Shown here: positions 1,724 to 21,371 of the stretch, one piece after another
Numbering within the stretch: the first letter of the stretch is position 1
How the letters are laid out: every line of letters begins with the position of its first letter
From: a virus
Strand: one strand, 5' to 3'
IMG/VR virus record: IMGVR_UViG_3300035034_002064
Location: 1-29,414 of that record
Length of the DNA: 29,414 nt
Notes under the pieces: generated by a model
Seen by the model: only the letters and a program-made list of their open reading frames with translations
Told to the model about the DNA's origin: nothing
Database searches by the model: none
Translations under genes and position numbers: made by a program

Positions 1724-3472
1724 TTAGATGATATTGTAACCACCTTCGCTCTCTACGACAAACGTCATGTAGTTCAATTCTGGGTAAGAACCAACTTCTG
1801 GCAACGCATATCTTGAGATCATAGCAATTTTAGCTGCCATAGTACCCTCAGAGATGGTACTGATTCTCTCGTTCAAGATGTACGGACAGAATTTGATACC
1901 GGGGTCTTTCTCATTACCGTGACGAGAAACGTTGATTCTCTGGTCCTCAGCACTCATCAAGTTATCCTCGTAAGTTCTGATTCCGTAAAGTGAACCAAGT
2001 AAACTCAATCCAGTATCAGTATCAAGATCGTTCTCGAATGGAGCCTCTCTATACCCTCTGATGTCTCTCAAAGTTGTAGAAAGAGTAACGTTCTGCACTG
2101 ATTGGTCACCTCTACCTCTTCTTGATCTTGTGTTCACAATACCAGAAGCGAATAATAAACGAGTTACTACTCTTCTCTGTAATGATGACAAGTTTTCAGA
2201 GATTGCACCAGTCGCTGGCAATACACCTGCATTTCCTGCAATAGTCAATGCTGTGTTCTCCTTACCTAAGTAAGATTGAGCAGAACCTGTGTTACCAGAA
2301 TCTCCCAAGAACGTGTTCATATTGAAACCGTTGTTCTGGTTCATTTGGTGGTGGTTAGACCATCCCAATGCAAACATTCTACCAAGAATGTGGTCATTGT
2401 ACCCTTGCGACAACTGATCGTTGATGATTGATTCAGCGAATTCATTGGCATCCTGATCGTGGTCCATGATCATATCTTGGATTTGCTCAGTTTGCAACTC
2501 AATGTCAACCTTAGAGGTTTGCGCCTCGTAGTTTCTATTGAACTGACGTAATCCCATTGATCTGTAATACGTCTTAGAACCAGTGAATCTCGACATAGGC
2601 TGGCTATATCTAGAACCGTTTCCTCTGTTCAAGAAGAATGGGTCTTGGTCATCAATGCCTGCTCCACTGTAACCAGCTAAGTAGTTAGTGAAACCTTCAA
2701 GGTAATCTACGCTTCCAGCATCAAAAGTGATGAAGTCTGTAGCATTTGAATAGATACCAGCACCGCTTGTAGCAGAATCGAAAAGATCAGCGATCAACGC
2801 TTCTTTCCAGTTAGTACCACCACTACCAGAATTATCGTTCACAGTACCTAATCTCAAGACTAAGTTACCGTTAACTCGGTGACGACCAACGAAAGTCACC
2901 GTAGCGATATCTTCACCACCAGTTGCAGCAGTAGCAATAGTGAAAGAAGAGCCTACATCAGGGTCACCCGGTAGTGCAGCAGCACCATTAACAGAAGCCT
3001 TAACCTGAATAATTTCTGGCTTAGATTCTGCAGATTCTAAAGTACCTCCAGCGTAAACTGGCTCACCGATATAAATACCGATTGATGATTTAGACATAGG
3101 AACCATTGGTACTAAGTCCATAGCGAAAGTCATTGCTGAAATTTCGATGAACATACCGAAAAGGTTCACGTAAACCTCACCAGAACCTAACTGAGAATAA
3201 AATTCCCCGTACCCGTTCTGTGGGTTGTTACCGAAGTCGAATGGACTTCTACCTACTGTGTTTCCAAGATTGGCAGTTCCCTGAGCATTCTCAGTAATTA
3301 ACTGTCTTTTCTTCTTTTCCCACATCATTCTCGTGTTGGCCATCAAGGCGATAGCCTTCAAACGTGATTCAGGTACTCTTTCTAATAGTCCTTCACCACC
3401 TTTTTTGCGGATTCTTTCTTTTACTTGTGGAACCCACGTATCGTAAACTAATTGCTTCTGTTGAGCGTTCAT
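1724..3472 (-). CDS. Major capsid protein, T4 gp23-like
   Basis: This 582-residue protein is the likely shell protein of the head. The segment TFAMDLVPMVPMSKSSIG (around residues 114-131) matches the conserved start of the gp23 core, where T4 has a DLVGVQPM-type motif. The N-terminus looks like a gp23 propeptide: a basic, helical stretch ends in QLITE at residue 61, followed by a Gly/Asn-rich segment, as in T4 where the cut is after Glu65 in a FLTE motif. Residues of about 140-250 (Gly/Thr/Ala rich, with VTFVGRHRVNGN) look like an inserted beta domain, and the protein is longer than T4 gp23 (521 residues). The protease-scaffold gene is directly upstream (43 bp), and a strong terminator follows. 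Remote assignment, but motif, size and context agree. Confidence 0.82.
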   Translation of the reverse strand: MNAQQKQLVYDTWVPQVKERIRKKGGEGLLERVPESRLKAIALMANTRMMWEKKKRQLITENAQGTANLGNTVGRSPFDFGNNPQNGYGEFYSQLGSGEVYVNLFGMFIEISAMTFAMDLVPMVPMSKSSIGIYIGEPVYAGGTLESAESKPEIIQVKASVNGAAALPGDPDVGSSFTIATAATGGEDIATVTFVGRHRVNGNLVLRLGTVNDNSGSGGTNWKEALIADLFDSATSGAGIYSNATDFITFDAGSVDYLEGFTNYLAGYSGAGIDDQDPFFLNRGNGSRYSQPMSRFTGSKTYYRSMGLRQFNRNYEAQTSKVDIELQTEQIQDMIMDHDQDANEFAESIINDQLSQGYNDHILGRMFALGWSNHHQMNQNNGFNMNTFLGDSGNTGSAQSYLGKENTALTIAGNAGVLPATGAISENLSSLQRRVVTRLLFASGIVNTRSRRGRGDQSVQNVTLSTTLRDIRGYREAPFENDLDTDTGLSLLGSLYGIRTYEDNLMSAEDQRINVSRHGNEKDPGIKFCPYILNERISTISEGTMAAKIAMISRYALPEVGSYPELNYMTFVVESEGGYNII

Positions 3473-3515: not shown

Positions 3516-5636
3516 TTAACGCAGAGCATTTGAAATTTCATCTGCGTCATAGCCTAGAGGGTCGTGGCCTTGGTTAGGAACATCCTTACCTTCGGTGATC
3601 AGCCTCTCTAATTTGGCATCTGGTCGTAAGTTGACCGACTTCCAGAAATTATCGATAGAAACATCTGACTTTAAGCCCTTAGCATTAAACAGGGCAATGA
3701 TGTTGTTCTTCTGTGCCTTATTCAGAGCTTTCCACTTGTTAACCAAGTGATCAGGGATTCTTGATATCAATTTATCGACCACCGTGACACCCTTAACTGC
3801 CTCTGTAATCAACCCATTGATTTGTTTGTCTCCATGATAATTTTCAACGTTACCATTGACTTTTTTCTTTGTCAATTGGTCTAAACTAGCAAAACGTGCT
3901 AGTGTCTCTGGCTTAGCCTTGGATAACCAAGGATATTCAGCCCTTAACATCTTCTCTTGTGCCACAACCTTTTGTCCATTGGTGCTTGCAAGAATTTTTC
4001 TGGTACTCTCGACTATACTTTCAGTACTGTCCTCTTGAGACAGCTGAGCTTCAACCTCATCGAGTTCTTGGTAAAGTTCACTTAATTTATCTTCATCTGG
4101 CTCATCCTTAGCCTCTTCTGCTTCGATATCAGCAATTATAGCTGATCGCCTTTGGTCTAGAGGCTCTGCATCTTCCATAAGGCTGTTTACACCTTCTGTT
4201 AATGCATCTGAATGCTCTACTACTGCTTCGAATACTGTGCTAAGTCTGCCGACTTTTTCTTTTAACTTCATGAATTCAGTCACCATGTCATCGGAATGCT
4301 GGATGCTGATATCCATGGTTTTATCTGATCTGGACGAGTGCTCTGTGATAGCGTTGATGCTCTCAGTAACTTCGTCGCCATGGTCAACTACGTGCTGTAA
4401 TGTATCTACCATTTCATCAGAGTGGTCAACAGCAATGTCCATGTTTTCACGCATTTCAGTGATTGACTGGTCGTGGCCATCTAAGGCCTCCACCATTTCG
4501 TCCGAGTGAGTAATGATCTGTTCTATGATCGGAGTCAGTTGGTCCATATAAGCAAGCATCGCTGTCTGCTTGGACTGCATATGGTTGATTGTTTTGATGA
4601 CTTGATTCATTTTGCCCTCAAGAGCTGTAGCAGAACTACCTTCACCCTGAGACATTTCATCAATTGTATCTACCATGAATTCACCAGTACCGCTAACGTA
4701 GCCGTCCACTTCGTTCTCTTGGTCATCAACCATTTCAATGATGTATTCAAAGATGCCCTTCTTCTGGAAGTGCTTATGGTCAGGTTGTAAATCTCCAACC
4801 TTCACCACTTTTTTCACCTTAAGGTTCTTGCCATCGATTCCGATGCTAGTACCTGCTTTAGGAAGATGAACTAATGATTCTACTCTCATGCCGTCCAGCG
4901 TCAACTTGGATGGGGTGTTTAATGATTCCGTAATTAGGTTCGGCTTCAATCCCATCGATTTAATCGTTTCCTGCACGATTTTGGCTATCTTTTGATCTTG
5001 TGTCATTTCACTCGTGTTTAACCTATTTATGTTACCAGCAGTTTTATTTTTCTGCTCAAATATTGATATCTGTCCTTTAGCATTTTTGGATTCGTAAACA
5101 GACTCGAAGATTCTAACAAGATTAGATGTTTTGAATCCACCTTCTGATACTATATCGTAAGTGTATATCTTTTCTATGAAAACCTTGCCTGATCTATCAA
5201 CCACTCCAGATGCTCTTGAAGAGATAAAGACCACCCCACCTTTTCTAACAATGGATTTAACCGTATCAGCATGGGCGTTGTCAAGAAGCTCTATCTTGAT
5301 TCTTACCACGTGCTCCTCTTCCTCATACCAGATGTCTCTGATGATGTGGACTGCATTCTGATACTTTACTAAAAATTCGTCTGGGTGGTCAAGCTCTCCA
5401 ACCAATTCACCACCACGTGCTTTTTCCTGCAAGTATGGTAAATGGTCGTTAACGTAGTCTGACTCATCATAGAGCCTATCGTTTTCGTTGAAACCAGAAA
5501 AATCTGCGCATATGGCCTCAAACACAAAGGTCTCGCCGTCCTCGACGACATTGGTAGGTTTGGCAGCTATACTTTCCGCAATTAAAACTTCTCTCCTCTC
5601 AGGGAATTTGGTTCCCTTGGACTCTAGTATGATCAT
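3516..5636 (-). CDS. Prohead protease fused to scaffold/core protein (gp21+gp22-like)
   Basis: The first 200 residues resemble the T4 gp21 prohead protease family: ENDRLYDESDYVNDHL, then GELDHPDEF with candidate catalytic His84, and FISSRASG with candidate catalytic Ser139/140. The remaining 500 residues are charged and largely helical, with a 14-residue-spaced HSDEMV-type repeat, as expected of an internal scaffold. In T4 these are two genes. LITE motifs occur at the linker (Glu237), near the C-terminus (Glu612) and in the last 25 residues (Glu682), and the N-terminus itself reads MIILES and VLIAES; all fit self-cleavage. An ATG at 5004-5006, after an A-rich stretch, could give a separate scaffold product. 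The chosen ATG (706 residues) avoids a 30-residue extension that looks non-coding. The capsid gene follows at 43 bp. Confidence 0.75.
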   Translation of the reverse strand: MIILESKGTKFPERREVLIAESIAAKPTNVVEDGETFVFEAICADFSGFNENDRLYDESDYVNDHLPYLQEKARGGELVGELDHPDEFLVKYQNAVHIIRDIWYEEEEHVVRIKIELLDNAHADTVKSIVRKGGVVFISSRASGVVDRSGKVFIEKIYTYDIVSEGGFKTSNLVRIFESVYESKNAKGQISIFEQKNKTAGNINRLNTSEMTQDQKIAKIVQETIKSMGLKPNLITESLNTPSKLTLDGMRVESLVHLPKAGTSIGIDGKNLKVKKVVKVGDLQPDHKHFQKKGIFEYIIEMVDDQENEVDGYVSGTGEFMVDTIDEMSQGEGSSATALEGKMNQVIKTINHMQSKQTAMLAYMDQLTPIIEQIITHSDEMVEALDGHDQSITEMRENMDIAVDHSDEMVDTLQHVVDHGDEVTESINAITEHSSRSDKTMDISIQHSDDMVTEFMKLKEKVGRLSTVFEAVVEHSDALTEGVNSLMEDAEPLDQRRSAIIADIEAEEAKDEPDEDKLSELYQELDEVEAQLSQEDSTESIVESTRKILASTNGQKVVAQEKMLRAEYPWLSKAKPETLARFASLDQLTKKKVNGNVENYHGDKQINGLITEAVKGVTVVDKLISRIPDHLVNKWKALNKAQKNNIIALFNAKGLKSDVSIDNFWKSVNLRPDAKLERLITEGKDVPNQGHDPLGYDADEISNALR
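4182..4511 (-). repeat. 14-residue repeat with regularly spaced His in the scaffold region
   Basis: Within the scaffold part, histidines of [D/E/Q/T]-H-[S/G]-[D/S] motifs fall at residues 377, 405, 419, 433, 447 and 475 of the 706-residue protein, that is at steps of 28, 14, 14, 14 and 28. Fourteen residues equal two heptads, so this should be a long regular coiled coil with one polar His layer every second heptad. Copies have diverged at DNA level. Confidence 0.75.
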
Positions 5637-12052: not shown

Positions 12053-13006
12053 CTAAATATCTATAGTGCTCAGGTCTTTATCGATAACCCCTAGGTTGCT
12101 GGCTGGGTCACAGTCAAGGAACATCCAGCCATCCATGTTAATACTGTAGTCTATCTTGTGGCGTTCCAAGTTATCCAATATAAGCTCCCGGTAGGTAACC
12201 CCTGCGATCTCTTCTTGTTCTCCCAGAACCTTGAGTTTAATGTTAGACATAGGGCAAAGCTCTAGATGTATCTCACGCTCAGCTATCACGGCCATAAGCT
12301 GACTTGACTTGACACATGCTATGCCGTGGCCTACTCTGTCTAGCTCCAAGTGAGTAACGGCATGTTCAAGTTCTATGACATGATCTGAGGTTAAACCTTC
12401 ACCAGCGTGGAACGTGGTCATGGCACCTGCTTTTTTCAGCTCTGAGAATATGTTCATGTACTTAGTTGGATTAATACTACCTGTCCCTGACAAGTCAAAT
12501 CCTACCACACCTTTTCCAAGGAATTCAACGGTTTTTCCAGCCAATATCTCACCTTGTGTTAATGTGAACTTTCTATCGCTAGATATGATCAGACCCCCTT
12601 CTATTCCATACATATTTTTGGCCATCTGGAATCCGTCGCATGCCCTTTGTATGACCACATCCAGATCAAACCTTCTATCGTGCCCATTTCTAAGCATAGG
12701 GTTAAATCTAAGCTCCAGATAGTCGATACCGAAGTTGATCTTGTAGTGCTTGAAGGTCTCAAACACTGCTTTTTCTATAGCGAACGGTGAGCTTTGTATA
12801 GATTGTGTCATCGGGTACTTATCAAAATACCCCTTGTCTTTCACAAATCTTTCATAAAATTGCTCGTAGGTGTTAATTTCACGGCTTATTCTTATGCCTT
12901 GTTCGTGAGCAAGCTCCCAAAGGACGTGTACCGGGCAAGAACCCCCTAGATGACTATGATATTCTTGACTAAGACAATTATTTTCTGGGTTTAATTCTTT
13001 CTTCAT
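12053..13006 (-). CDS. Adenosine deaminase-family enzyme with altered C-terminal active site
   Basis: Most metal and catalytic motifs of the ADA/AMP deaminase family are present: HSHLGGS (His17, His19), GFDLSG (169-174), TFHAGE (His200, Glu203), RVGHGI (His227) and LELCPMSN (248-255). In ADA the last motif is S-x-N-T-D-D-P; here it reads SINMDGW, keeping the zinc-binding Asp292 but with Gly in place of the second Asp, and the protein ends only 25 residues later, whereas cellular ADAs continue for about 50. It could deaminate adenosine, deoxyadenosine or a modified purine nucleoside, or have lost activity. The ATG at 13006 (317 residues) is chosen; in-frame ATGs at 13030 and further up add no conserved sequence. 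Next gene starts 2 bp on. Confidence 0.8.
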   Translation of the reverse strand: MKKELNPENNCLSQEYHSHLGGSCPVHVLWELAHEQGIRISREINTYEQFYERFVKDKGYFDKYPMTQSIQSSPFAIEKAVFETFKHYKINFGIDYLELRFNPMLRNGHDRRFDLDVVIQRACDGFQMAKNMYGIEGGLIISSDRKFTLTQGEILAGKTVEFLGKGVVGFDLSGTGSINPTKYMNIFSELKKAGAMTTFHAGEGLTSDHVIELEHAVTHLELDRVGHGIACVKSSQLMAVIAEREIHLELCPMSNIKLKVLGEQEEIAGVTYRELILDNLERHKIDYSINMDGWMFLDCDPASNLGVIDKDLSTIDI

Positions 13007-13114
13007 ATTTTGATGGTATATTGAAAACATGATAATAAACCGTATAAATTCGGGTTTGCAGTTACATACATCTTTCCGCAAAATATACCAGTTGGTGCTG
13101 CCTATATAAATTGC

Positions 13115-14002: not shown

Positions 14003-15700
14003 TTATTTTTTCTTAGATATTCTCTCGCTGAGTTTCATCATATCTTGCTTTCGCTCCATACCACCCAGCTTGTTCTCATAAATTTTGAAGAATTTCTCAA
14101 GGTCTTCCACCTCTAGGCCTAACTGTGTTGCTGCTGATAATTTATCAAGTTCTTTAATAACCTCTGAATTGTCGTTATAGAATATCAGACTATCATCTTC
14201 CCATTCCCAACTATCGGCAATGTGTGAAGTGATCAACTGATCTAATAGGCCATGAGCCAAATCCATAGCATCCTCTTCTTCTTTGGGAATATCAGTTTCC
14301 TCATCTACAGAAGAAATATAGTCCACGAATTTCATACCAGCCGATTTAACTGCCTCTTCCGTGGAGTCCATCAAATTTTTATCTTTGTGCTCTTGGCCGT
14401 CAAGTAGATAATATTGCATCTTATCGAAATCCAGCACAGCCACGTTCTTGCCTCCTATCTTCACTAGGGTTCTACCATCTTCTAAGCTTCTAAATTCAGC
14501 ATTCTCACCACTTGCACTAGCCACCTTTCTGCCTATCTTATCAATAACCTTAGTATGCTTGCTTTGAACTTCGTTCACAGAGGTCACATAATCAATGAAT
14601 TTTAAGTTTTCACCCTTGGCTAACTTCTTGATAAGGTTGATCAAAGTTTGACTCATGTTACCAGAGCCACCAAACAAATGAAATTGCATATTCTTGAAGT
14701 CAATAATGGCGATGTTCTGCCTGAAACCTTTTACTAGGTTTCTGCCGTCTTTCAACTCTTGGAATTCCAGTCCGATGGTAGATCTGGATGTGTCCACGTC
14801 TGCGCCACCGCTACTGATGAACTTTTGCACCATCTTCTTCTCTTTAGGCTTCAAAGTATAACCAGACACCTCATTCACGGATTGAATGTAGCCTTTTACG
14901 ATTTCGTCATCTCCTTCCTCCTCGGTCTCCTCGCCCATAACAGCATCGAATTTTTTCACGGCTCTGGCTCTGTCTCCTGTGGAGTTGCTGTCATCCTGAA
15001 TAAAGGCATCAAGTTTGTCCAGAAGCTCTTTATCGGCATTGTGGTTGCCCTTTACTTCTGCTTTCTCAAGCTCTTCAATGCTTTCAGTCAAGAGACCATG
15101 CATTTGCTTGATATAGTCAAGATTGGATTGAACTTTGTCAGTACTAGGCACTAAGGTGATGTAGCTGATTAGCTCCTCGTTATCCATGTAGTCCATTTCA
15201 ACTAGAGCCAGCAAATTATCAACGAATGCGTTTCTTTTGAGACCAGCTTCATCCATGATGTCCACATTATCAGATGAGAAGTCCTTCTCGACTTGTTTGA
15301 ATATCACTTTCGCCTCATCCTCCCCAGCAGCTTTCAGATAGGCCATAACAAAGTCAGCTTCACCCATCTCATCCACAAGGTCTGAAACGTCCTGACTGTC
15401 AGACCTAGATTCTTTTACGAGCTTTTTTTTTAAACGCTTCGGTTTGTGGATGATGGATTCATACATCTTTTCAGCAGGAAATCCCTCTATCTTTTCAGTA
15501 AGCTCCTTTCTGGTGAAAGATTCCGTCTTATCTGAATCCTTGAAGGTGATAGAAAGGGTGGCTCCATCCCAATCAAATTCATCATGGTCTGGGTGCTCCG
15601 CTTTCAAGAAGTCATTAATCATGCTAATTTCTTCACCGAAGTTACTCATTTCTTCCTCGGCAGCTTCTTTAATGTATCGGGATGGTGTTATCAACTTCAT
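14003..15700 (-). CDS. Probable internal head protein with duplicated domain
   Basis: The 565-residue acidic protein is not recognised as a family but has telling features. Its N-terminus MKLITPSRYIKEAAEEE resembles T4 capsid-targeting peptides (MKTYQEFIAEA), with a possible protease site after Glu12 (YIKE/A). Further sites occur at LVKE/S (Glu97) and GLLTE/S (Glu206). Two tandem repeats of about 90-100 residues start at Tyr271 and Tyr371, each with Y-[IV]-x-SVNE, later EDGR-LVK, AxxDFxxMQ and a Lys-rich end; a third copy begins at Tyr461 and breaks off. N- and C-terminal parts also share a faint [DE]WxxxxLxIxFxD pattern (residues 44-56 and 500-511). It was chosen with the two genes that precede it as an internal-protein group. 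Confidence 0.7.
   Translation of the reverse strand: MKLITPSRYIKEAAEEEMSNFGEEISMINDFLKAEHPDHDEFDWDGATLSITFKDSDKTESFTRKELTEKIEGFPAEKMYESIIHKPKRLKKKLVKESRSDSQDVSDLVDEMGEADFVMAYLKAAGEDEAKVIFKQVEKDFSSDNVDIMDEAGLKRNAFVDNLLALVEMDYMDNEELISYITLVPSTDKVQSNLDYIKQMHGLLTESIEELEKAEVKGNHNADKELLDKLDAFIQDDSNSTGDRARAVKKFDAVMGEETEEEGDDEIVKGYIQSVNEVSGYTLKPKEKKMVQKFISSGGADVDTSRSTIGLEFQELKDGRNLVKGFRQNIAIIDFKNMQFHLFGGSGNMSQTLINLIKKLAKGENLKFIDYVTSVNEVQSKHTKVIDKIGRKVASASGENAEFRSLEDGRTLVKIGGKNVAVLDFDKMQYYLLDGQEHKDKNLMDSTEEAVKSAGMKFVDYISSVDEETDIPKEEEDAMDLAHGLLDQLITSHIADSWEWEDDSLIFYNDNSEVIKELDKLSAATQLGLEVEDLEKFFKIYENKLGGMERKQDMMKLSERISKKK
14306..14890 (-). repeat. Tandem protein-domain duplication in the 565-residue protein
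   Basis: Residues 271-368 and 371-459 are tandem copies, with matched blocks NLVKGFRQNIAIIDFKNMQF / TLVKIGGKNVAVLDFDKMQY and ENLKFIDYVTSVNE / AGMKFVDYISSVDE. The third copy is only its opening. The DNA has diverged, so the duplication is old. Confidence 0.8.
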
Positions 15701-15745
15701 CTTTATGTGCTTTTATTATTACAATGTTAGATTTATTATGTCTAG

Positions 15746-15768
15746 GCAGTGGAACACTGCGTGTTTTT
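15746..15768 (+). terminator. Hairpin with T run facing against the local transcription
   Basis: GCAGTG-GAA-CACTGC is followed by GTGTTTTT, a terminator shape on the plus strand, between two minus-strand genes. No plus-strand gene lies upstream for a long way, so it may block antisense read-through, or simply be a short hairpin in the leader of the 15700 gene. Confidence 0.35.
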
Positions 15769-15808
15769 AATTATTTAGGCAGATCGCAGATAGAATACAA
15801 GTCATCCA

Positions 15809-16297
15809 TCATTCTAGCTGCATCTTAGCATGCTTAATAACGGCTGTACTCTTTTCTTTTTTTAAAGCGTGTCTCATATCACCCGTCTCAGTTGGAGACG
15901 TGTAACCTTCTTTGATGAGGTTTTGCCAGTAAAGGTAGGCATCTGATCTTTTTCCAGCCTCTTCGTCAAGCTTTATGCCCTGCGGATTCTCATAGCCCAT
16001 CAAGTCCGCATCTATATTGGCCAGCATTAGGGTCAGAGCCATATCGAACACCCCTCTAGACCGAAAATCTTTTTCTATCATTGCTGACTTGAGAACCACG
16101 AACCCGTCAGATTTTACATCTGTCGAGAAAGCCAAGTTACCTGCATACCCATCTTCTTCATGGATGATACTAACCAAGTACTTGGATGATTCATTAGACA
16201 CCTCAAAGTAGAAGCCCTCAATCGGCTCAAGATGAAAGAAAGGGAAAGTACCGCTCTTAGGCATTGTACTTTCTAGGATGCTAGATAGCTTTCTCAT
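15809..16297 (-). CDS. Probable internal head protein with GNAT-like fold
   Basis: The N-terminus MRKLSSILESTMPKSG looks like a capsid-targeting peptide with a cut after Glu9 (ILE/S); a second site is NLIKE/G (Glu130). The body reads like a small N-acetyltransferase: strands LVSIIHEED and NLAFSTDV, then FVVLKSAMIEKDFRSRGVFDMAL, where RSRG followed by a helix resembles the acetyl-CoA pyrophosphate-binding motif A, and AYLYWQNL near the end matches the usual terminal region. If so it may be packaged and modify host proteins on entry, but activity cannot be inferred. At 162 residues it is a normal GNAT length. Next gene upstream starts 8 bp before it. Confidence 0.65.
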   Translation of the reverse strand: MRKLSSILESTMPKSGTFPFFHLEPIEGFYFEVSNESSKYLVSIIHEEDGYAGNLAFSTDVKSDGFVVLKSAMIEKDFRSRGVFDMALTLMLANIDADLMGYENPQGIKLDEEAGKRSDAYLYWQNLIKEGYTSPTETGDMRHALKKEKSTAVIKHAKMQLE

Positions 16298-16304
16298 TTT
16301 TTTT

Positions 16305-16808
16305 TTATACGCTATAGATTGCTTTGCCCTCAGTTATGGCGATTTCCATAACTCTTCGACCTTGGGCTACCAATTTGTCCCAAAGCTCGTCCATGTCACC
16401 GGGAAGAGGCTTTACATTGGTGGGCGTACTTTTTGGAATCTTCAAGTCCTTCCTATCTTCTAAAGGTCTGGTTGCGCCCTTGTAATTCAGTCCCATCTTT
16501 TTGTGGTTCAGGGACAGCCAATTAACTATGGTGGCTGTTGCTGGGTTGTGTGGCTCAGTGAGCATCAGTACGCCCTCGTAGGTGTCCACTTGGGCTAAAA
16601 GTCTGTTGGCTCCGTCCTCAACATAGGCTAGTGTCCAGATGTCTGGGTCGCCTTGATTGCTAGCTAGAACTTTTAATATCGGTCGGGATTCGTGATCGGT
16701 CATTCCATCTTCTACTTCACCCTTTAGGAACCAGCTTAAAAATAGGCTGGTGTGTACCCTCATTCGATACCCTTGAGCCTCTAATATGATCTCTGAAAGT
16801 CTTTTCAT
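16305..16808 (-). CDS. Probable internal head protein, unknown fold
   Basis: The 167-residue protein begins MKRLSEIILEAQGY, close to the T4 internal-protein leader pattern M-K-x-[LY]-x-x-[FI]-x-x-E-A, with a predicted cut after Glu10. A second site, EIAITE/G (Glu160), would remove the last seven residues. The middle (WTLAYVEDGANRLLAQVDTYEGVLMLTEPH) looks like an antiparallel sheet, but no family is recognised. It heads a three-gene minus-strand run with 15809-16297 and 14003-15700, all with similar leaders, and diverges from the sheath gene. Confidence 0.65.
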   Translation of the reverse strand: MKRLSEIILEAQGYRMRVHTSLFLSWFLKGEVEDGMTDHESRPILKVLASNQGDPDIWTLAYVEDGANRLLAQVDTYEGVLMLTEPHNPATATIVNWLSLNHKKMGLNYKGATRPLEDRKDLKIPKSTPTNVKPLPGDMDELWDKLVAQGRRVMEIAITEGKAIYSV

Positions 16809-16866: not shown

Positions 16867-16897
16867 CAAAAATACACCTAATAATGGCAGTAGTAAA
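16867..16897 (-). promoter_or_regulatory. Possible promoter for the internal-protein genes
   Basis: On the minus strand TATTTTTG (16867-16874) matches TAnnTTTG, with GTTTAC about 19-20 bp upstream near 16893-16897. The start would fall about 50 nt before the 16808 ATG. It overlaps the first codons of the sheath gene. Confidence 0.35.
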
Positions 16898-19800
16898 CGG
16901 AATCGACCTAAGTCAATTTGACGCAGCTGGTGTTGTAACCATCATTCAAGATCAAACAGTTCAGGCTGTCTTAGGAACAAACGAAATTGTAGTGTTAGTA
17001 CCCGGCTTTTCAAGACGTGGTAGCTTCAACACTGGTATATTAATCAGACAAGGAGACCAAGCAACAGCAGAGTCGCTATACGGTGGTATCAACCGTAAAC
17101 TTGAAAGGAAGGGTTCATTCTTCCATAGGAGTTTACAGGTTGCGTTACAGAACGCCCCGGTAATAGCCCTCAACCTGTTAAACCTCAATAACGAGGTCGA
17201 TCAGGCTGGCTTGCCTACCGAAAATGCGGATGTAGTTCCGTATCGCTCCTTTTCTTTGGACATTGCTGATGAGAACGGAAACGTCTCTGATAAGCTTTAT
17301 GCATCCTACTACAACAAGGATAGGTTCTGGAGAGCAGACCGTAAGTTCTTGTTGGCAACTAGGGATGCTGTAGACCAAGGAAGCTTGTTGAATATTGTGA
17401 ACTTGAGTCAGGTTCCTTATTCACTAATCATCAGAAAGTCAGTCATAGCAGGATTTGATATCCCAGTTAAAGAATTCTATGAAGATGACCCAGACGTGAA
17501 GCCTCCTTCTTTAAGGGATGATGATCTAATATCAGATTATTTCATCGATGTCTATGTCATCAACGGTAATTTCTCATCCGAGAGATTCGCCCAGTTAGCA
17601 GTTGACCCGATCTTCGGTGAATACTTCGACAACAACGGGCTTATAGCTGATAAATTTGAGGAATTCATTGCTCTACCAGAGCTTGTAGTTAGAGACATCA
17701 TCACTGGTACGTTTATCCCGAATTTCACGGATAACACTGGCGAGAACTTCTATATTGAGGCGATCATCAATAGAAAGGTTAATAGCCTAGGGCTTCTTTG
17801 CTCAGTGGACGTGAAAGAACTAGACAAGTTCGAATTCGGAACCAACAGTAAGAACATCGACCTTGTGGGTCACAACCTTATTGGTGGAAACGTGGACAAC
17901 GCTGATTTCCTTTCATACAAAGGTAAAGTCAATGAGAACATATTATTTGAAGAAGAGGCCACTAATGACACTACCGATGTTGACACAACTGGTGGTGGAG
18001 TGACTATTACACCTTCTCCTGCTACGAAAAAGATCACAGTAGTGATAGACAACACTAATCCTATCTTTTCGACTCTAGAGACAGAAATGGAGCTGGGAGA
18101 CTTAGTAGGTGGTGAGACCACAGCGGTAGGTACCGCAGCCGGGGTAGCAGTGGCTAACCCTGCACTGAGAGTATCGAGGTTGCTCAAAACTGCAACGCAG
18201 ATCACATTCGATCTTACTTCCCCACTTAAGGATGGTGAGACTGGAAATTCTGGTTCATTCGTGGATGTCCTATTGACAGCCGATGTGTTCACAGTGGAAC
18301 ATGATATCAACAGAATCTTGATAGACGGGACTAACACATTCTATATTGGAGATAGAAACTCCAAATTGTGGGATGATGTTCAATCTGGTATCATCACCAA
18401 CGGTGACAGAATCTCAGACGGTACAGACGAGTACTTCATTAGAGCATCATTCATCAACGCTACAGGTGGTATAGATGCTGCTGATGATTATAGAGACCTT
18501 GTGCTAGTCGAGATGTTCACTGACTCGGAATTGACATCCCCTGCACCAGTAGGGTCAGCTTTCGCATTCGGTGCAACTGTAGATGCTAGCGGATTCCCAG
18601 TGTCGGGAAGCGCAGTCAACATTATATCAATTGTAGGGTCATTGAATCAGAGAGTTGAGATTACTCCAGTTGATGATAAAACATTCACCACTGATGTTAG
18701 TAACTCTGACTTGTTCTCTATAGGACAATATGTGGTGGGATTTGATGCCGACAACGAAGAAATTCTTACTAGAATCCTTGAAATCAGGAACATAGGTACA
18801 TCTGTTGTGACTGATATTCAAGTGACGGTAGCGAACGTATTTAAGAAATTCACAGCCCCAGATGGTGCGATTCAAGTGGAAAGATACCAAGACTTCGAGT
18901 CTTTCTTCCCTAACTTCAATCCTACTTTCTTGAAGGGATTCACTCTAAGAGATAGCCACGAGCCAGACGGTACAAACGAAAGGATTCGAGAAATCTACGG
19001 GGTGATTGATAGAACCAACATAGGTAAAGCGTTGAAAGACCCTGACTTCATCAATTTCAGATACTTGGTGGACACATTCAATGGTGGTCTTGAGCCGAAT
19101 TCCAAGTCATACTTGTCTAGATTGGTGAGAGACAGACAGCGATCTATTGCTATCTTGAACACACCGACATTCGAAGAGTTTGCGGATTCTAAGAACCCTA
19201 GGTTTACTGATGCTCCAACGGCTGCAAACCCTGCACCGACATTGAACACTGAGTACATTTCTCAGGGAGCTAATATACAGTTAAATCCTGACTTCTTGTA
19301 CACCTTGCCATCAGAGGCAGACGGTGCTTCATTTAGTGGATTCTTTGCTCCTAACTTCGTCCTAGATGATGCAGGTGAAGAGGTAAGCTTTCCACCAGCA
19401 GCAGCAATAGCCAACGCTTTCGTATCGGTACAGACCAATGGAAACAACCCATTCTTGCCAGTGGCAGGACCAGTAAATGGTGTAGTGGGTGGAGCTATAG
19501 GTGGTCTTAGAAGAATGGAGTATCCTTTATTCAGAGAGGACAGAGGCTTCCTTGGTAAGAAAGGTATCAACCCGATCATACTTAAGAATCAGCAATTCCA
19601 AATCTTCGATGATAGAAGTGCATTCCAGAGATCACGTTCCATCTTGAACAGATTGAGTGCTAGGGACGCATTGATTTCCTTTGAGATCGCCACTGAGAGA
19701 CTGCTAGCACAATACGTGTTCACATTCAATAACGCTAATGTGAGAACAGAGGTATTAACGCTGCTTGACAACTATTATACTCAGATACAAACACGATTCG

Positions 19801-19982
19801 GAGCTATAGCTAGCTTTGAATTACAGTTCAATGACCAGAATAACCCAGACTCGCTATCAGCAGCAAGTGTTGGGCTTGTGGACACGAGACTGAGGCTACC
19901 TGACATCAACAGGGTATTCGTTAATAGAATCACGTTGTTCAGAAACAACACAGTGTCATCTGGTGGATTCGTAGCGGTATAA
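16884..19982 (+). CDS. Contractile tail sheath protein, gp18-like, with large insertion
   Basis: The 1032-residue protein forms the contractile tube around the tail. N-terminal residues 1-110 show the sheath pattern: TVQAVLGTNEIVVLVPGFSRRGSF, then GDQATAESLYGG and GSFFHRSLQVALQNAPVIALNLL. The C-terminal 130 residues match the sheath core: LSARDALISFEIATERLLAQ, a FNNANVRTEVLTLLDNYYTQI helix, then NDQNNPDSL and RLPDINRVFVNRITLF. T4 gp18 is 659 residues; the excess is in the middle (about 355-665), which is Thr/Asp/Val-rich and reads as inserted surface beta domains. The ATG at 16884 follows a 75-bp AT-rich divergent region. It is followed after 12 bp by another virion candidate, and by a terminator at 21424. 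Confidence 0.8.
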   Translation: MAVVNGIDLSQFDAAGVVTIIQDQTVQAVLGTNEIVVLVPGFSRRGSFNTGILIRQGDQATAESLYGGINRKLERKGSFFHRSLQVALQNAPVIALNLLNLNNEVDQAGLPTENADVVPYRSFSLDIADENGNVSDKLYASYYNKDRFWRADRKFLLATRDAVDQGSLLNIVNLSQVPYSLIIRKSVIAGFDIPVKEFYEDDPDVKPPSLRDDDLISDYFIDVYVINGNFSSERFAQLAVDPIFGEYFDNNGLIADKFEEFIALPELVVRDIITGTFIPNFTDNTGENFYIEAIINRKVNSLGLLCSVDVKELDKFEFGTNSKNIDLVGHNLIGGNVDNADFLSYKGKVNENILFEEEATNDTTDVDTTGGGVTITPSPATKKITVVIDNTNPIFSTLETEMELGDLVGGETTAVGTAAGVAVANPALRVSRLLKTATQITFDLTSPLKDGETGNSGSFVDVLLTADVFTVEHDINRILIDGTNTFYIGDRNSKLWDDVQSGIITNGDRISDGTDEYFIRASFINATGGIDAADDYRDLVLVEMFTDSELTSPAPVGSAFAFGATVDASGFPVSGSAVNIISIVGSLNQRVEITPVDDKTFTTDVSNSDLFSIGQYVVGFDADNEEILTRILEIRNIGTSVVTDIQVTVANVFKKFTAPDGAIQVERYQDFESFFPNFNPTFLKGFTLRDSHEPDGTNERIREIYGVIDRTNIGKALKDPDFINFRYLVDTFNGGLEPNSKSYLSRLVRDRQRSIAILNTPTFEEFADSKNPRFTDAPTAANPAPTLNTEYISQGANIQLNPDFLYTLPSEADGASFSGFFAPNFVLDDAGEEVSFPPAAAIANAFVSVQTNGNNPFLPVAGPVNGVVGGAIGGLRRMEYPLFREDRGFLGKKGINPIILKNQQFQIFDDRSAFQRSRSILNRLSARDALISFEIATERLLAQYVFTFNNANVRTEVLTLLDNYYTQIQTRFGAIASFELQFNDQNNPDSLSAASVGLVDTRLRLPDINRVFVNRITLFRNNTVSSGGFVAV

Positions 19983-19994
19983 TAAAAGTCGAAA

Positions 19995-21371
19995 ATGAAC
20001 GTAACATTTGAAGAGTTAAAGAGAGAATTGGAGGAGAAAGTAAAGGCACCTTATGTTAAGGTGTCTAAAGCTCCTTTAGGTGGGTACATTATTTCAGTAT
20101 CCTTGGATGAGGAATCATCTTGGCCGAATGGCATCATGATGAATTCTAGGTTCTTGAAATTGGTTTTACATTTGGACGGGGAGCTGGAGCGAGCAGCACA
20201 GTACTTCAAGTTCAAGGATAAATTCCGTAAGACCAGAATCAGTGACGTGAAACAAATTGTTCAGAAGATTAATAAATTTATAGAGAAAAACAAGGCTGTT
20301 AATGAGGCCTATAAAACCAAAATTATGAGTAATAACAAGAGGAGAAAGTACTCGGTTGGAGCTTCAAAAGGGCAAAAGATTCAGAAGTTATCAGCCATAT
20401 TAGAGTCTAAGAAAGTAATGATTAAGGAATCTGCAGATACCGAGGGTGCTCACTATATCACGGTTCCTAAGGAGATAGAAGATACCGCTTGCGAGCTTAT
20501 CACATCTATGGACATACCACATGAAGTTATTGGTGGCAATAAGTTAGTTTTTGCCTCTAATGAGAATGCTGCCGAGGCACTAGATGCTCTTAAAAGAGAT
20601 GAAATCGAGGTAGAAGCGACAAGCGTGTCAGATTCTGGCGATGGTGGTGAAGGTGCCGAGGAAGAAGCTATTGAAGAAATGGCTAACATGGTGAAAGAAA
20701 GCAAGCTCAGCTTGGATAGATCACTAATGTGGGCTGGAGTTGGTGTGAAGCTAGGCTTAGTCAATGCTAAACAAGCTAGGAAATCAGCCATCAAAATGCT
20801 GGGTATCAAAAAGACTGGTGCGTTCAACGGAAAGGTGACTGGGGAGTCTGCTAAATTGGTGAGACGATTGGCTATGAAAGCTGTCAGCACACCAGACGTG
20901 AAGAAAACTTGGAAGTCTCTAGCCGGGGAGATGGGAGTAGAGGATATCATGGAGGAACTGTTCAAGTATGCCCTAGTAGAGGAGAGCAAAGAAGATGCCA
21001 TGAAATTGGTGAAAGCTTGGTGTGAGGCTGGAGATGTAGTAGAAGGGGGTGATGCAGAGGACGCTTTGGAAGACTTCATAGAAAAAAGCCCTGAGAACGC
21101 AGCCTCGGCTACGCAAGCACTGGAAGAACTTTGTGCGGATAAATCTGACGAAGATAAGAAGAAGTTCATGGACGCTATGGCAGACATGGTTGCTGATTCC
21201 GAAGGTGGTGATGGTGGTGAAGAAGGTGGAGACCAAATCGATGAAAGCAAGCTATCAGCAGAAGAGAAGCAACTGATGAAAAAGAACAAGGGTATGACTT
21301 GGAATCAGATTCAAAAAAGACGTGCTACTAAAAAATTCGTAGCTGATAGACTCAAGAAAATGAAAAAATAG
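19995..21371 (+). CDS. Probable virion protein with internal targeting-like peptide
   Basis: The 458-residue protein is not recognised. Residues 1-110 form a charged alpha/beta domain. At residues 129-138 stands IQKLSAILES, nearly the same as the leader of the 16297 gene (RKLSSILES), followed by VMIKE/S (Glu145) and KMVKE/S-type sites. An ATG at 20325 (Met111, MSNNKRRKYS) lies 20 residues before this motif and could start a second product. The middle is Glu-rich, and residues 225-345 look helical with basic patches (KQARKSAIKM, KLVRRLAMKA). The C-terminus is acidic then strongly basic. It follows the sheath gene by 12 bp and ends at a strong terminator, so it is probably co-expressed as a late virion protein. 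Confidence 0.65.
   Translation: MNVTFEELKRELEEKVKAPYVKVSKAPLGGYIISVSLDEESSWPNGIMMNSRFLKLVLHLDGELERAAQYFKFKDKFRKTRISDVKQIVQKINKFIEKNKAVNEAYKTKIMSNNKRRKYSVGASKGQKIQKLSAILESKKVMIKESADTEGAHYITVPKEIEDTACELITSMDIPHEVIGGNKLVFASNENAAEALDALKRDEIEVEATSVSDSGDGGEGAEEEAIEEMANMVKESKLSLDRSLMWAGVGVKLGLVNAKQARKSAIKMLGIKKTGAFNGKVTGESAKLVRRLAMKAVSTPDVKKTWKSLAGEMGVEDIMEELFKYALVEESKEDAMKLVKAWCEAGDVVEGGDAEDALEDFIEKSPENAASATQALEELCADKSDEDKKKFMDAMADMVADSEGGDGGEEGGDQIDESKLSAEEKQLMKKNKGMTWNQIQKRRATKKFVADRLKKMKK

Follow-up and report, generated by a model that had tools for sequence, protein, structure and literature searches.

Predicted T4-type capsid-targeting leaders on three consecutive genes of a phage fragment related to the jumbo phages of Bacteroidota

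The internal proteins (IPs) of bacteriophage T4, which have only their leader in common, are injected into the host and inhibit different GmrSD restriction enzymes, and this leader directs their packaging (PMC12373910; PMC3012670). IPI, IPII, IPIII, and Alt, all processed by gp21, carry a short N-terminal leader that ends in (I/L)xE↓(A/S), the arrow marking the cut, on otherwise unrelated proteins. phiKZ-like giant phages such as SPN3US also load their heads with cargo that the prohead protease trims, the ejection proteins, which are thought to enter the cell (PMC5694885), but the propeptides of these proteins mostly exceed 100 residues, follow another cleavage motif, and have no short leader in common. 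Polyvalent proteins (Iyer et al. 2017, PMC5512222) are multidomain polypeptides, in contrast to the proteins described here, most of which are small and start with a shared leader, yet their predicted virion-delivered domains (InPase, NUDIX, and GNAT) also occur in the tagged or site-rich proteins of the relatives of our phage.

The stretch of DNA analyzed here (the window) is a 29.4-kb virus fragment from IMG/VR with 38 genes in our leader counts; its open reading frames (ORFs) were called mechanically, and their starts are putative. Judged by its capsid and sheath proteins, its nearest named relative is Flavobacterium phage MaF61 (34% and 39%), and further near relatives are Tenacibaculum phages PTm1/PTm5, Sphingomonas phage PAU, the Prevotella Lak phages, and uncultured huge phages. 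The tail sheath gene (plus strand, positions 16884 to 19982; PHROG tail sheath), a divergent neighbor of the genes under study, served as the query for relatives, and the related records are partly fragments. The kind of system to which we assign the locus is already known: it works like the T4 internal proteins. As in T4, a gp21-type protease and a gp23-type capsid protein are encoded alongside short leaders on unrelated proteins. The window differs from T4 in that its leaders read ILE and IKE instead of IAE, its cargo has no detectable relationship to any T4 protein, its relatives infect Bacteroidota, and its packaging is a prediction from the sequence. PAU gp142, gp154, gp199, and gp270 belong to the same lineage as the window (capsid and sheath proteins 27 to 28% identical) and obey the same leader grammar; PAU differs in its LYE/LNE dialect, in its ~20 tagged genes, and in cargo that is not homologous to that of the window.

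An earlier note, made from the sequence alone, had pointed to leaders at the starts of three consecutive minus-strand genes and to their likeness to T4 internal-protein leaders, and both observations are confirmed: no ORF has an in-frame start codon ahead of its leader, and T4 IPII and IPIII indeed start with MKTYQEFIAEA. The three leaders are 10, 9, and 12 residues long and end in IxE↓(A/S), a T4-type prohead protease site. Gene 1 (minus strand, 16305 to 16808; 167 aa) opens with the predicted capsid-targeting leader MKRLSEIILE↓A (16779 to 16808; site IILE↓A), and the predicted cut before A11 would leave a mature part of ~157 aa without known family. Gene 2 (minus strand, 15809 to 16297; 162 aa), with a predicted GNAT-like fold at residues 29 to 129, opens with the predicted leader MRKLSSILE↓S (16271 to 16297). 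Gene 3 (minus strand, 14003 to 15700; 565 aa), acidic and with two tandem domains, opens with the predicted leader MKLITPSRYIKE↓A (15665 to 15700), the least typical of the three. Only 7 nt separate genes 1 and 2, which look like one operon, and gene 3 starts another 108 nt on. A common T4-like late promoter (TATAAATA) was looked for upstream of the three genes and not found.

The three products have no common family or length, and their mature forms are acidic to neutral (pI 4.7 for gene 3, 5.1 and 6.1 for the others). No homologue of any of them was found in Pfam, PHROGs, PDB sequences, 50,697 phage records, single-sequence scans of IMG/VR, or 18 related records. Weak matches of the gene 1 product (E values of 0.9 to 4) were dismissed, their targets being unrelated proteins, and its structure model was unusably poor (pLDDT 39).

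Whether the leaders exceed chance depends on how they are defined. The bare site, (I/L)xE(A/S/G/N) at residues 4 to 14, is present in 3 of the 38 window genes against 1.2 expected from shuffles, which is not significant (p 0.12). Under the full leader grammar (M[KR], 2 to 10 residues, then (I/L)xE(A/S/G/N)), the three cargo genes are the only ones to fit, where 0.12 would be expected (p 0.0004), and three matching genes in a row have a p of 0.0002; these p-values are optimistic because the grammar was written after the leaders had been seen, and independent genomes therefore weigh more. Applied unchanged, the grammar found 7 genes against 0.8 expected in the related genome G001, 5 against 0.5 in G003, 18 against 0.7 in G004, and 22 against 1.06 in PAU; it was not significant in G007 (2 against 0.57, p 0.11) or in MaF61 (2 against 0.60, p 0.12). 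In T4 itself it matched four genes, two of which are real internal proteins (IPII and IPIII) and two of which are false, so that about one false match per genome must be reckoned with as background. Counts of tagged genes vary with the grammar chosen.

Another line of evidence comes from the protease dialect of each phage. If (I/L)xE followed by a small residue is the cutting site, the scaffold is expected to be rich in it, and in all six genomes (the window, MaF61, G001, G003, G004, and G007) no other protein was as dense in sites, measured against its own composition, as the protease-scaffold (z 3.4 to 8.5). In the window, this prohead protease fused to a scaffold (minus strand, 3516 to 5636) matches Pfam PF03420 (S77; 36.3 bits against a cut-off of 27) and the head maturation protease of PHROG 207 (E value of 1.9e-21), begins MIILE↓SKG...VLIAE↓S, and has a z of 3.4 with sites reading ITE, IAE, ILE, and IFE. 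The neighboring major capsid protein of gp23 type (minus strand, 1724 to 3472; Pfam PF07068) has a predicted propeptide of 61 residues (minus strand, 3290 to 3472), placed by alignment with MaF61, PTm1, and PAU. Sites lie just before the conserved mature start in all of these proteins: QLITE↓N in the window, KIYE↓S in MaF61, IINE↓S in PTm1, and ALME↓N in PAU. The mature capsid protein of PAU comprises 520 of 585 residues according to N-terminal sequencing (PMC5646251), and this sequenced start lies at most one residue from ALME↓N. Leaders match the dialect of their own phage, with IFE in G001 and G003, LNE in G004, LYE/LNE in PAU, and ILE/IKE in the window, where the leader site agrees with the other predicted substrates, namely the capsid protein and the scaffold sites. 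All of the features of T4-type internal head proteins that can be read from a sequence are thus found here: leader, S77 protease, matching substrates, and unrelated cargo.

Conservation in related phages, which the earlier note had made decisive for its reading, was borne out for the leaders as a class, which are kept in several relatives, and not for the cargo genes, of which the 18 related records yielded no homologue. The relatives provide the stronger evidence. In the cultured phage PAU, ~20 genes start with MK(T/S)(L/I)..LYE↓(A/S) and often continue with KLNE↓(A/S), and the leader is present on four of the five PAU genes annotated as internal capsid protein (gp142, gp154, gp199, and gp270; hypergeometric 1.2e-4). 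The fifth, gp70, is without a leader. This annotation does not seem to derive from the leader itself, because only 4 of the ~20 tagged genes bear it. Many of the tagged PAU genes (L009 to L011 and L152 to L155) are clustered near the scaffold and capsid genes. The 166-kb genome G004 contains ~20 genes (18 to 21) with MKN..SY.EFLNE, and the 482-kb genome G010 (IMGVR_UViG_3300028558_000016) contains ~70 among 725 genes with MKH(I/V/L)KL(F/Y)E.F(L/I)NE or a near form, against 3.2 expected, where both count and expectation come from the grammar plus one broader pattern. Many of the tagged G010 genes (L127 to L151) are strung together over long stretches close to the sheath gene.

Behind the leaders, these proteins have little in common. 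Leader identity within a phage is 0.54 to 0.88 and falls to 0.06 to 0.11 right after the site, and once the leader was removed, no similar pair was found among the 70 products of G010 or the 21 of G004. Recognizable cargo in the relatives includes a poly-A-polymerase head, ATP-grasp (in two phages), cytidylyltransferase, inorganic pyrophosphatase, a DNA polymerase beta thumb, an alpha/beta hydrolase, and a weak GNAT. G007 encodes both a tagged poly-A-polymerase-head protein (L121:11698-12861) and a tagged ATP-grasp protein (L122:17687-18703), and G010 too has a tagged ATP-grasp protein. MaF61, the closest cultured relative, has almost no separate leader genes. Its scaffold ORF140 (L004:15692-19906) contains 25 LNE/LFE sites against 5.5 expected, and its ORF123 (L012:273-3047), a 924-aa protein with a NUDIX domain, contains 13 against 3.0 expected, as if its cargo were delivered as cleavable polyproteins. 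A limited literature search found no description of the scale of tagging in this lineage, of its diversity of dialects, or of the polyprotein form in MaF61.

We consider it likely that the three window genes encode T4-type head cargo, targeted to the capsid, trimmed by the protease, and probably injected. The earlier claim that they form a head-packaged group is well supported by the protease, the cleavage dialect, the relatives, and the annotated internal capsid proteins of PAU, a support that comes by comparison and not directly. The insignificance of the bare site in the window, a grammar written with the leaders in view and false in half of its T4 matches, cargo without a homologue in the 18 related records, the acidic-to-neutral cargo, the atypical leader of gene 3, and the scarcity of separate leader genes in MaF61 count against it. 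Some of the products, above all the 565-aa product of gene 3, could conversely be prohead core proteins like T4 gp67, gp68, and gp22, to which the same kind of leader would give access to the core and which would be cut up and lost at maturation, neither retained nor injected. The annotated PAU scaffold gp152 has the leader of an internal capsid protein (MKTLTQLYEA), T4 core proteins too have such sites, and the gene 3 product, being long, acidic, and partly repetitive, may be a core protein instead of cargo. It shows no site enrichment (z 0.6), however, against a z of 3.4 to 8.5 for the protease-scaffolds of the group, a result that also rules it out as a polyprotein; the window already has a protease-scaffold fusion; and the gene 2 product looks like a globular GNAT-like domain. 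On this balance we regard core proteins as an improbable explanation.

We give still less credence to the idea that the leaders are coincidental or play another role, such as an amphipathic N-terminal helix or an assembly or membrane signal, on proteins that are ordinary cytoplasmic ones. That the bare site is common in the window and that two of the four T4 matches to the grammar are not internal head proteins would fit such an idea. It is nonetheless hard to reconcile with full leaders on three consecutive genes, with a dialect that agrees with the scaffold and capsid-protein sites of the same phage, with the 5 to 70 such genes that several relatives have, a number well beyond what shuffles give, or with the leader on four of the five annotated internal capsid proteins of PAU.

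In the head-cargo reading that we prefer, the leader of 9 to 12 residues would tie each product to the scaffold core during prohead assembly, as we infer from T4, and the phage's own S77 protease would cut after (I/L)xE, as on the scaffold and the capsid protein, at sites that are present in the sequence. The mature proteins would stay amid the DNA in the head and probably accompany it into the host, where the GNAT-like product of gene 2 could modify or bind host components. By analogy with the T4 IPs as injected inhibitors, a role in countering host defenses, which the earlier note had raised, is plausible here. In the lineage, the leader would act as a general tag on many unrelated proteins.

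The three tagged genes and their counterparts in the relatives suggest that the phages of this group bring large sets of proteins, and not DNA alone, into the bacteria that they infect. We lean slightly towards a broader generalization, in which the T4-style leader has become a universal delivery tag in this lineage of jumbo phages and megaphages of Bacteroidota, each phage bearing its own dialect on tens of unrelated proteins that are all loaded into the head and injected, and MaF61 using polyproteins cut at the same sites instead. The tag would then span ~20 genes in PAU and in G004 and ~70 genes, or about one gene in ten, in the 482-kb phage. If this is true, head cargo could be read from sequence alone, by taking the protease dialect from the scaffold and capsid protein and then listing the genes that start with it. 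Dozens of "hypothetical" genes per genome would become candidate injected effectors or anti-defense factors of the first minutes of infection, and large heads, this suggests, would serve the delivery of protein besides that of DNA.

The GNAT-like fold that the earlier note had proposed for positions 15809 to 16297 is probable, at low confidence, and its catalytic activity is doubtful. A single-sequence AlphaFold2 model of the gene 2 product (pLDDT 54, pTM 0.54) has a predicted GNAT-like core of four strands, helix, strand, and helix (minus strand, 15911 to 16213). The top 50 Foldseek matches of this low-confidence model in the PDB are nearly all GNATs (best E value of 4.2e-3), the best viral match in BFVD has an E value of 7e-4, and the matches in VIA, with Z up to 8.4, are nearly all GNATs as well. 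A few rows of the VIA list are Crl regulators (Z of ~6.5), so that the case for a GNAT is carried by the majority of the matches and not by any one row. There was no Pfam match up to an E value of 5 and no GNAT among the PDB sequence matches. In place of the acetyl-CoA motif A, (Q/R)xxGx(G/A), the protein has RSRGVF, in which the R and the G are kept and the last position is F, and it is this alteration that makes catalysis doubtful. G010 encodes, as a second candidate for GNAT-like head cargo, a tagged product of 161 aa (L150:7044-7529, minus strand) with a weak GNAT match just under the cut-off (PF00583, E value of 0.0013); no homology between it and the gene 2 product was detectable.

The two tandem domains of the gene 3 product are each ~95 aa long (residues ~273 to 372 and ~373 to 463) and score 141 against 27.7 ± 5.1 for shuffles (maximum, 46). 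The motif Y(I/V)xSV(N/D)E, similar to the protease site except for V at P3, bounds each of the domains. Downstream of the sheath gene, a 458-aa product (plus strand, 19995 to 21371) with a match to PHROG 3308, a family annotated as of unknown function, is a possible further head protein of uncertain membership. Two sites, AILE↓S and MIKE↓S, lie inside it at residues 135 to 146, where KLSAILE↓SKKVMIKE↓S forms a leader-like stretch in mid-protein after the PHROG 3308 domain; as a polyprotein it was ruled out, being overall without site enrichment. Elsewhere in the window, genes that resemble, as judged by eye, those for dCMP deaminase (147 to 617), thymidylate synthase (731 to 1525), and adenosine deaminase (12053 to 13081) are also present.
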